Positions 39,806 to 54,200 of a DNA stretch of 64,000 nt are shown piece by piece (the stretch's first letter is position 1; each line of letters starts with the position of its first letter). The DNA comes from Gammaproteobacteria bacterium. Its GTDB lineage: Bacteria; Pseudomonadota; Gammaproteobacteria; JAJPIJ01. The notes below the pieces were generated by a model. That model was not told the DNA's origin. It did not search any database and was given only the letters and a program-made list of their open reading frames with translations. Made by a program: the position numbers and the translations under genes. Location: contig JAJPIJ010000025.1 in NCBI GenBank assembly GCA_021324815.1, positions 1 to 64,000 on the forward strand, in the 5' to 3' direction.

Positions 39806-40675
39806 GTGAAACTGGCGATGTTCACGCAGAAGGGACGCACCCGCATCGGCATCGTGGCGGACGGTGGGGTGATCGATACGGCCGGGAAAGGAGACATCCC
39901 CGCCGACCTGCGGGAGGCGCTGGAGGCGGGCACCCCGGCCATGGATCGCCTGCGCGCCCTGGCGGCGGGCGCCAAACCCGCGCTGGCGCTCCCGGACGTG
40001 CACCTGGAAGCGCCCGTCCGCCGCCCGCCGAAATTCCTCGCCATTGCGCTCAACTACGCCGAGCACATCAGCGAAACCACGCTGCCCAAGCCGGAGTTCC
40101 CCAGGTTCTTCAACAAGCAGTCCACCTGCGTCAACGGGCCCTACGATCCCATACACATGCCGAGGGTGTCGAACAAGCTCGATTACGAGGGAGAGCTCGG
40201 TGTCGTCATCGGCCGCCGCTGCCGCCACGTGCCAAAAGAGCGGGCGCCGGAAGTGGTGGCAGGATATCTAATTGTGAACGATGTCACCGTGCGCGACTGG
40301 CAGGCGAAGTCGGAGACCTTCACGCTCGGCAAATCCTTCGACACCCACGGCCCCATCGGGCCCTGGCTCGTCACGCCGGATGAAATTCCCGACCCGCACG
40401 TGCTCGATTTCCGCACCACCGTCAACGGTCACGAGCGGCAGCACTCCAACACCCGGCACATGATCTTCAGCATCTGGGAGCAGATCGAAGTGCTGTCGAC
40501 GGCGTTCACGCTGGAGCCGGGCGACATCATCTCCACCGGCACCTGCGCCGGCGTCGGCGTCAGGATGAACCCCCGCGGCTATCTCAAGGTGGATGACGTC
40601 GTGCGCGTGGAGATCGAGAAAATCGGCTTCATCGAAAACCGCGTCATCCCCGAGCCGGATACCCGGTTGTTGTAG
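39806..40675 (+). CDS. Fumarylacetoacetate hydrolase-family protein
   Basis: A 289-aa protein starting GTG at 39806 (second residue Lys; a later start is not needed). The FAH catalytic core begins KFLAIALNYAEHISE and has the metal-binding Glu residues in YEGELGVVIGRRC, then GYLIVNDVTVRDWQ and FDTHGPIGPW. Family enzymes hydrolyse C-C bonds in acylpyruvates or decarboxylate oxaloacetate; the substrate is unknown. It is alone, opposite in direction to mpl, with a 227-base gap upstream that contains nothing I recognise. Confidence 0.9.
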   Translation: MKLAMFTQKGRTRIGIVADGGVIDTAGKGDIPADLREALEAGTPAMDRLRALAAGAKPALALPDVHLEAPVRRPPKFLAIALNYAEHISETTLPKPEFPRFFNKQSTCVNGPYDPIHMPRVSNKLDYEGELGVVIGRRCRHVPKERAPEVVAGYLIVNDVTVRDWQAKSETFTLGKSFDTHGPIGPWLVTPDEIPDPHVLDFRTTVNGHERQHSNTRHMIFSIWEQIEVLSTAFTLEPGDIISTGTCAGVGVRMNPRGYLKVDDVVRVEIEKIGFIENRVIPEPDTRLL

Positions 40676-42245: not shown

Positions 42246-43519
<1,274 letters not shown>

Positions 43520-43600: not shown

Positions 43601-43755
43601 GTAAACATCATAGCAAATTGATGCCAAACAGATTTTTTCCTCTGCTTCCTGCCGGCTGCGGGTGCCCGGGACAGATGGGCGGTGAACGCGGGGGAAATCG
43701 ATATCGCGTATTTGCGGAGCCGGTCACGAACGTAGCAATGGTCAATGTTATTTTA

Positions 43756-43771
43756 TGTGACTGCCATCACG
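43756..43771 (+). promoter_or_regulatory. CRP/Vfr-like site
   Basis: TGTGACTGCCATCACG fits the consensus TGTGA-N6-TCACA with one mismatch. Its centre (43763.5) is 41.5 bases upstream of a start at 43805, if TAGACT at 43793-43798 is the -10. That is the classic class II activator position. Confidence 0.5.
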
Positions 43772-43804
43772 GCAATCCGCCGCGGCTTACACTAGACTTT
43801 CACC

Positions 43805-43894
43805 AAGAAATGCAATCCTCCTAACTTGTTTTGATGTGCCCGGGGCCGCTCAACTTCTCCTCCCCCTATCGATGAGCGGCCCCGATTTTCTTTT
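43805..43894 (+). ncRNA. Candidate small RNA with C-rich loops and terminator
   Basis: No protein gene is evident here. A transcript from about 43805 would be about 90 bases and end with a 12-base-pair perfect stem (43841-43852 with 43873-43884), 20-base loop, and ATTTTCTTTT. Single-stranded CCTCCT (43817-43822) and the loop's TTCTCCTCCCCC are complementary to Shine-Dalgarno sequences, as in several regulatory RNAs. An upstream CRP-like site could activate it. Inferred from sequence only; the stem could instead terminate a longer leader before phhB. Confidence 0.45.
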
Positions 43895-43975
43895 GGACTC
43901 CTGAAAATTCTCCCGTCCTGATCCTTGGCTGGCTGCTGTGTTACATTTGTACGCAGAAGAGCATGGTGAGAACAA

Positions 43976-51265: not shown

Positions 51266-54200
51266 TTATGTGGAAATCCCCATGGGAGCACGCTTGGCCA
51301 GCAGATAATCCAGCCACAGGCCGGCGATTTTCTCCTGCACGGTGTTCTGGCGCAGCCGCGCGCTCAGGTTTTTGAAATCCACGCGGTCCAGTTCCTGGTC
51401 CTGATTGTTGCAGGAATACACGAAATATTCCTCGCCGGTCTTCGGGTCGACATGCTTGCACAAACACTGGGCGCACACCCCCTTCATCATGCACTGCATC
51501 GGCGAGTTGATGGAGCCGATGGCATGGTGCCGCGGCTTGAGATAAGGCTTGAGCACGCCGTGGCGCGCCTCCTTGACCGCCGCCATCATGCGATCGGAGC
51601 CGATGACGATCATGTGATCGACGTCGTCGAGATGGATGGGCGTCTCGCCGAGCTCGCCCCTGGCGTAGGCCAGCATGGCCTCGACGATGTTGCCGATGAA
51701 GGTCTTGTCCTGCGGCCGCCGCGGCGGGATGGCGGCGGCGTCGGCGCCGCGATCGACCGCCCACACCACGATGTCGGAGGCCGCCTCGATGTCCTCGCGC
51801 TTGAACAGGTCCCGGCCGCTGCGATAACCGGCGAAATAGATGACGTTGTTGCCGGCGGCGCGCAGCGCCCGGCCGATAGAGAACAACACCGCGTTGCCTA
51901 AGCCCCCACCGGCCAGCAGCACGTTGCGGCCGCTGGGGATGTCGGTGGGCGTGCCTGTCACGCCCATGACCACGATGGGATCGCCGGGCTTGAGCGTCGC
52001 GCAAATGCGGCTGGAGGCGCCCATCTCGAGCGCGATGAGCGAGATGAGCCCCCTGTCCTTGTCCACCCAGGCGCCGGTCAGCGCCAGTCCCTCGGCGGCC
52101 AGCACGGTGCCGTCGATCCGTTCGGCATGACTCTCGAAGTTCTGCACGCGGTAGAACTGCCCGGGTGAAAACTTGTGCGCGGCGCGCCTCGCGCGCACCA
52201 CCACCTCGATGATGGTTGGCGTCAGCCGGTTCACCTCGACCACGGTGGCGAGCAACTCGTCATCAAGCCTGGCCTTGAGCGCCTTGAGCGCCGCGTCGCG
52301 TTCCATCTGCCGCGCCGGATTAAGCGACTTCAATTCCGCCTCGAACAGCCTGACGACATAGGGATAGCCGTCCTTGCCGCTGGCCATCGCCTTGACCACG
52401 TTGCCGGCATAAACAGGATGGTTGTCGCCGTAGAAGCTGATGAAGCGCCCGTCGCGGTGATAGGAGGTGAGCGGCGCCGGTTTGCCGATCTTGGGCCAGG
52501 GCCTGTCGTGCACGGGAGAAAGCTTGATTACACCGTTCTCGACCACGGGCTCGCAGCGCTGGTAAAACCTGCCGTCCATCTCGAAGGTGTCGGGATACTC
52601 CGTCTGATAGATGGTGTTGGGCGAGGTGCCCGCGGCAATGAACAGGCTGCGGAGCATCACCTCCGGCTGTTCGCCGGAATCCGTCCATTTGCCATCGGCG
52701 AATGCATATTTTTGGAAGCGCACGGCCCGGAGATGGCCGTGTTCATCCTCAAGCGCCTCGCGCGGATCCATGCCCTCGGCCCAGGCGATGCCTTCCTCCA
52801 GGGCCTTGATGACCTCCTCGTGATTCTGGCGGTAGGCGGGCGAGTCCTTCATTCCCTTGCGGTAGAAGATCGTCACGCCGCCCCATTGATCCAGCAGCGG
52901 CTGGAAATCCGGAGGCTCGCCGGCCGCCATGGCGCGCTCACGTTCGGCGCGGATGGCGCGGCCGTGGGCGAGAAATTCATCAAGGATGCCGGATTCCTCG
53001 CCGTCGAGCCGGCCGCGGATCGCCGCCTCGCCCGCGTGCGCGCAGAGCGTCTCAAAGCGATGCAGGATCTTTTCCACCTGCATCGGGTAGTAGGCCATCA
53101 ACTCGGTCGCGGTGTCGATGGCGGTCAGGCCCCCGCCGATGACGCCGGCGGGCAGCCGCACCTGCAGATTGGCCAGCGACGACTCTTTCGCCGCGCCGGT
53201 CAGTTGCAGGGCCATGAGAAAATCCGAGGCCTTGCGGATGCCGCGGATGAGGTTGTTCTTCAGGCCAATGATGGTCGGCTTGCCGGCGCCGCTGGCGATG
53301 GCGATGTGATGGAAGCCCAGATCCCAGGCCTCGTTGATGGTCAGCGTGCCGCCGAAGCGCACGCCGCCGTAGCAGCGGAAGGTGTTGCGGCGCGCCAGTG
53401 TGAGATAAATCACCTTGAGGAAATTCTTGTCCCAGCGCACCGTGATGCCGTATTCGGCCACGCCGCCGAAGCCGAGCATGATGCGCCGGTCGAGGTCCTC
53501 GTACAGTTCGTGGAAGTCGTAAATGGGCCGGGGCGGGGTGGTGTCGTCGCCGGTCAACTCCTTCGGCAGCGGCTCGATCTTGAGGCCGTCGATGCCGACC
53601 ACGGCGAAGCCCTCGTTCAACAGGTAATGCGCCAGCGTGTAGCCGGCGGGGCCGAGGCCGGCGACGAGGACGTTCTTGCCGTTGTAGGGCAGGGCGTGCG
53701 GGCGCTTGACGTTGAGCGGGTTCCAGCGCGTCAGAAAGCTGTAGATTTCGAAGCCCCAGGGCATGAACAGCACGTCGGTCAGGACATTGGTTTCGATCTG
53801 CGGGATGTTGACGGGCTCGGTTTTCTGGTAGATGCAGCCCTTCATGCAGTCGTTGCAGATGCGGTGGCCGGTGCCGGGGCACAGCGGGTTGTCGACAATG
53901 ATCAACGCCAGCGCGCCGATGTTGTCGCCCTGGCGCTTGAGCACGTGCATCTCGGAAATCTTCTCATCGAGCGGGCAGCCGGTGACGTTCACGCCGAGGG
54001 GATTCACCTTGTAGGTGCCGTCCTTTTTGTGGCGCATGCCCTTGGCGCAGGAATCGGCGTCGCGGTCATGGCAGTAGATGCAGTGATCCACCTCGTAGAG
54101 CGCCTCGCGTTCGTTGCAGCGCGCATCGGTGAGATGGAAGCCATCGCGCCGGCGGCGGTGCCCGCGCGGCCCCTTGAGCGCCACGTAGCCCTCGCGCGCC

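Follow-up and report, generated by a model that had tools for sequence, protein, structure and literature searches.

It was asked whether the roughly 140 bases between the divergent genes ispG and phhB of a gammaproteobacterial genome (2.37 Mb assembly) encode a regulatory RNA under the control of CRP, and whether such an RNA belongs to a known family. A sequence-only reading of the window, i.e., of the entire stretch of 64,000 nucleotides analyzed in this work, had proposed a catabolite-controlled small RNA (sRNA) with anti-Shine-Dalgarno motifs at this site. The presence of a real and conserved sRNA gene at 43756-43894 of the plus strand is well supported. Judged by its sequence features, this gene is very likely a free-standing unit, probably activated by CRP, the transcript of which, about 90 nt long, would silence mRNAs by pairing with their Shine-Dalgarno regions.

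Elements of the promoter and of the RNA

No protein gene overlaps the locus, as had been proposed, since it is flanked by the starts of ispG (43519, minus strand) and phhB (43976, plus strand). At its upstream end is a predicted CRP/Vfr-type site, TGTGACTGCCATCACG (43756-43771, plus strand), a palindrome centered at about -41.5 (class II). The motif TGTGAN6TCAC was observed three times in the window, as compared to 0.31 expected occurrences; the other two palindromes, at 40273-40287 and 53399-53413, are both situated within long reading frames and are probably chance occurrences. A CRP site at -41.5 in the absence of a clear -35 element is the textbook arrangement of a class II activated promoter. 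The earlier proposal of a -10 element at class II distance held with regard to the geometry, but the hexamer had to be reassigned. It is best read as TAGACT (43793-43798, plus strand) because a homologous hexamer is found equally far from the CRP site in relatives, namely, TATACT in the sister genome (G001), TAAACT in L011, TACACT in G215, and TAGACT in G142, corresponding to the general form TANNCT. The starts of the CRP site and of the hexamer are 37 nt apart in all members. With this assignment, the CRP site is centered at exactly -41.5 and the transcription start site (TSS) is placed near 43805. The same class II geometry recurs in G000 to G003, L011, G215, and G142, all of which were found without imposing the spacing.

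The predicted sRNA of about 90 nt spans 43805-43894 on the plus strand, its start being deduced from the -10 hexamer and its end from the T-run. The anti-Shine-Dalgarno box UCCUCCU is located near the 5' end (43816-43822), within which the CCTCCT of the previously noted short C-rich region occupies 43817-43822. The terminator hairpin (43841-43884) has a perfect 12-bp stem, in which CGGGGCCGCTCA (43841-43852) pairs with TGAGCGGCCCCG (43873-43884), and is followed by the T-run ATTTTCTTTT (43885-43894) that was read from the sequence. The stem encloses a C-rich loop of 20 nt (43853-43872; ACTTCTCCTCCCCCTATCGA as DNA, listed as ACUUCUCCUCCCCCUAUCGA) with CUUCUCCUCCCCC, and this loop is the second anti-Shine-Dalgarno module and the probable main seed. 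The CRP-like site, the C-rich region, and the 12-bp terminator with its T-run had thus all been recognized in the sequence-only reading, with coordinates that were right to within a few bases. The fold of the window RNA has a z score of -3.9 to -4.4 (-4.4 for the predicted sRNA), none of 200 shuffled sequences being equally stable, and z scores in six members range from -4.1 to -7.9. A leader hairpin is clearly predicted in G166, G386, G413, and G142 and weakly in the window genome. The short ORF ATGCAATCCTCCTAA within the RNA lacks conservation beyond the genus, and a dual-function RNA was therefore set aside.

Members and conservation of the family

The sRNA locus was found in all four genomes by which the window's order was represented in the analysis. 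In the sister genome the arrangement is the same, with a stem-loop that is 100% identical and flanks that have diverged. The covariance model R1 was built from these four genomes, with seed rows filled up with N and a single A left out of G001 to hold the register, and its application to 369 genomes of the class added G215 (E 2.5e-5) and G142. A scan of cysG neighborhoods, which was separate from R1, added L011, a Thiotrichaceae MAG, and a promoter-profile scan of the other named cysG neighborhoods provided no further members. The CysG protein of the window genome groups with those of other carriers and of Thiotrichaceae. The third approach was a pattern composed of the CRP site, a fixed gap of 22 bases, TANNCT, and a downstream YYTCCC. 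It matched 9 of the 369 class genomes (one match in the control), 13 of 53 genomes in the order of G122, and 3 of 36 in the order of G215 (no control matches in either order). These counts are lower bounds, since any member that deviates from the pattern at a single position is missed, and the elements that the pattern demands were excluded as evidence for the members found by it. A stricter pattern with the leader CCTCCT was dropped, having matched, apart from three chance-like sites, no more than the window and its sister, and the weaker R1 matches L100, L102, L103, and L104 were rejected, each being without promoter, hairpin, or C-rich loop in the alignment.

By these three approaches the family was extended to 22 members distributed over five or more families of the class. 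All 22 have a class II CRP site, TANNCT at the fixed spacing, an RNA of about 90 to 110 nt, and a C-rich terminator loop. In G415, from the order of G122, the sRNA promoter and leader are present twice (L133 and L134), on two contigs and identical over the part compared, which reflects either a duplication or an assembly artifact.

The hairpin and CCTCCT, on the conservation of which the sequence-only reading had made its proposal depend, both recur in the family. All 22 members have kept the hairpin and its C-rich loop, with the full-loop consensus CCCUCCUCCCCC, and CCUCC occurs within the first 36 nt of the RNA in 16 of 22, as compared to a mean of 0.56 and a maximum of 4 for shuffled leaders; neither the full loop nor the leader box was required by the searches. 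The six members devoid of the leader CCUCC are G002, G003, G215, G442, G443, and G142. In G002 and G003 a perfect 8-bp hairpin of the GCCGAUG-GUU-CAUCGGC type (L110 and L111) is found in its place, and their RNAs keep the terminator-loop module only. The sequence of the terminator stem varies between lineages while pairing is kept. RNAalifold recovered from the 22-row alignment the inner terminator stem alone as the arms of different groups are put out of register by MAFFT, and for this reason formal covariation is not claimed.

Regulator, transcription unit, and mode of action

CRP/Vfr orthologues with the recognition helix GCSREMVGR are encoded in the window genome (G000), and both Hfq and the class III nucleotide cyclase family were detected in 9 of the 9 genomes checked. 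The two genomes of the window genus possess two CRP/Vfr paralogues each, namely, L154 and L163 in G000 and L155 and L162 in G001. Activation of the sRNA promoter by CRP is likely. The site could instead be bound by another regulator of the CRP/FNR family, the RNA then answering to a signal other than cAMP, and the window genome does encode an FNR-like protein in addition to its two CRP/Vfr-like paralogues. However, this is unlikely, since the TGTGA half-sites fit the CRP/Vfr recognition helix (REMVGR) present here, whereas FNR has a preference for TTGAT half-sites. Furthermore, a second palindrome of the TGTGAN6TCAC type, which was not required by the searches, is located about 40 to 50 bp upstream in half of the members (11 of 22).

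The recurring neighbors of the sRNA, likewise not required by the searches, are ispG, cysG, phhB, dcd-mrp-metG, and lexA/msrB, as named from the protein sequences without a family search. The gene order metG, mrp, dcd, cysG, phhB, sRNA is shared by the window and G166; the RNA is near ispG, lexA, msrB, or cysG in G122, G237, G142, and L011, near metG, mrp, dcd, and msrB in G215, and between a ROK-family gene and cysG in G002 and G003, which represent another genus of the same family and have a perfect CRP palindrome. The shared place together with the shared design indicates common descent. As to ispG itself (42246-43519, minus strand), it is split in two frames in the window (ORFs 42497-43519 and 42246-42842) and is intact, with 430 aa, in the sister genome; the break coincides with a short run of A near 42501-42505 and may represent a sequencing error or a genuine frameshift.

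In the window (82 bp downstream), in G001, and in G166, the RNA is immediately followed by phhB in the same orientation and could be imagined as a CRP-controlled 5' leader or attenuator of phhB, the terminator of which passes a fraction of the transcripts into this gene. This is very unlikely because, in most contexts examined, the gene that follows is oriented toward the RNA: cysG in G002 and G003, a kinase gene in G122, G237, and L011, and lexA in G142. The terminator is therefore considered to close a free-standing unit and not to act as an attenuator. Moreover, the stem forms a perfect, strong terminator, and what is conserved are anti-Shine-Dalgarno modules, not alternative stems.

For this free-standing sRNA gene, promoter geometry, RNA modules, conservation, synteny, and the genes for CRP/Vfr, Hfq, and class III cyclase can be read from the DNA; from these we infer transcription, activation by CRP, repression through Shine-Dalgarno pairing, and a participation of Hfq. 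At elevated cAMP levels, a starvation signal, cAMP-bound CRP/Vfr at -41.5 would bring RNA polymerase to a promoter that has no good -35 element, and the resulting transcript of about 90 nt would terminate at its own intrinsic terminator. Two single-stranded, pyrimidine-rich stretches would be exposed, CUUCUCCUCCCCC by the terminator loop and CCUCCU close to the 5' terminus; these may pair with the G-rich Shine-Dalgarno regions of chosen mRNAs, probably with Hfq, thereby blocking ribosome entry and promoting mRNA decay. Such pairing has been shown for CyaR, VcdR, and sX13 (PMC11795201, PMC8672173, PMC3771888). A search for GGGGGAGG ahead of ATG resulted in 39 matches in G000 versus 5 in the control, and no orthologue with GGGGGAGG ahead of its start codon was common to the sister genomes G000 and G001. 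In G001, a gene for a CstA-like carbon-starvation protein (L253; G001:C20:12178-12830) carries GGGGGAGG upstream of the start codon and could be targeted by the C-rich loop; it is taken as a lead only. That the transcript is a sponge for a protein or the ribosome (for Hfq, or as a mimic of the 16S 3' tail CCUCCUUA) with no specific mRNA pairing can hardly be credited: several members do contain CCUCCUU, as does the 16S tail, and repeated C-rich loops are general anti-Shine-Dalgarno sequences, but the terminator loop (CCCUCCUCCCCC) is longer than this tail and unlike it, and sX13, CyaR, and VcdR, well-studied RNAs in which such sequences occur, repress chosen mRNAs.

Comparison with known RNAs

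In line with the initial impression that no known family is represented, Rfam 15 gave no match at gathering threshold for the window and no relevant match for six relatives. The best subthreshold matches in the segment 43700-43920 were CcsR1 (RF02791; 26.5 bits versus a gathering threshold of 65.3) and ar14 (RF02344; 20.5 versus 58.8 bits), a resemblance due to the C-rich loops. No description of the locus was found in the open-access literature searched, and no comparable regulatory RNA was found annotated in the lineage in this analysis. The RNA thus apparently represents an as yet undescribed sRNA family of a known kind.

CcsR1 and ar14, cuckoo RNAs of the NfeR1 group, are characterized by CCUCCUCCC hairpin loops, the last of which is the terminator. 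Correspondingly, CUCCUCCCCC is found in the terminator loop of the window family, and most members have CCUCCU or CCUCCC in the 5' part. Unlike the window RNA, CcsR1 and ar14 are alphaproteobacterial; rhizobial cuckoo RNAs have three or four such hairpins, and no CRP promoter is reported for them there (PMC3927594). Another related case is Xanthomonas sX13, the C-rich loops of which repress mRNAs that have G-rich motifs close to their start codon; however, this RNA has three C-loop hairpins and 115 nt and is Hfq independent, and the corresponding article does not mention Clp, the local CRP (PMC3771888). VcdRP of Vibrio cholerae is also controlled by CRP and pairs with translation initiation regions by means of a four-C seed, but it is repressed and not activated by CRP, and it encodes a 29-aa protein (PMC8672173). 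No ORF like the latter is conserved among the family members.

The closest functional analogue is CyaR (RyeE) of Enterobacterales, a CRP-activated RNA of about 87 nt with a CCUCCUU seed and the pyrimidine-rich terminator loop AAUCUCCCUU, which represses through pairing with the Shine-Dalgarno region (PMC11795201). The E. coli CyaR sequence carries CCACCUCCUUAGCC, and its right CRP half-site is about 35 to 39 nt before the TSS, placing the site center near -42. The window family shares the CCUCC anti-Shine-Dalgarno seed and the pyrimidine-rich terminator loop. A CRP site predicted to be of class II is present, as is a gene for CRP/Vfr. It differs from CyaR by a much longer C-rich loop, a longer terminator stem, and an ispG/phhB/cysG neighborhood, as compared to trhP-cyaR-ogrK (trhP/yegQ) in E. 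coli. CyaR (RF00112) was absent among the relaxed Rfam matches (to E 10) for 43700-43920, and R1 did not match the E. coli cyaR locus. Because there is no model match either way and the neighborhoods differ, the two families are considered separate. A vertically inherited new sRNA family, forming a core output of cAMP-CRP/Vfr around Thiotrichaceae with the design of CyaR, perhaps with both having diverged from one ancestral CRP-activated anti-Shine-Dalgarno RNA, is conceivable but doubtful. The family supplies promoter logic and candidate seeds for mostly uncultured gammaproteobacteria, and it supports the idea that placing an anti-Shine-Dalgarno RNA under CRP is an ancient or repeatedly adopted way to reshape translation under carbon limitation.
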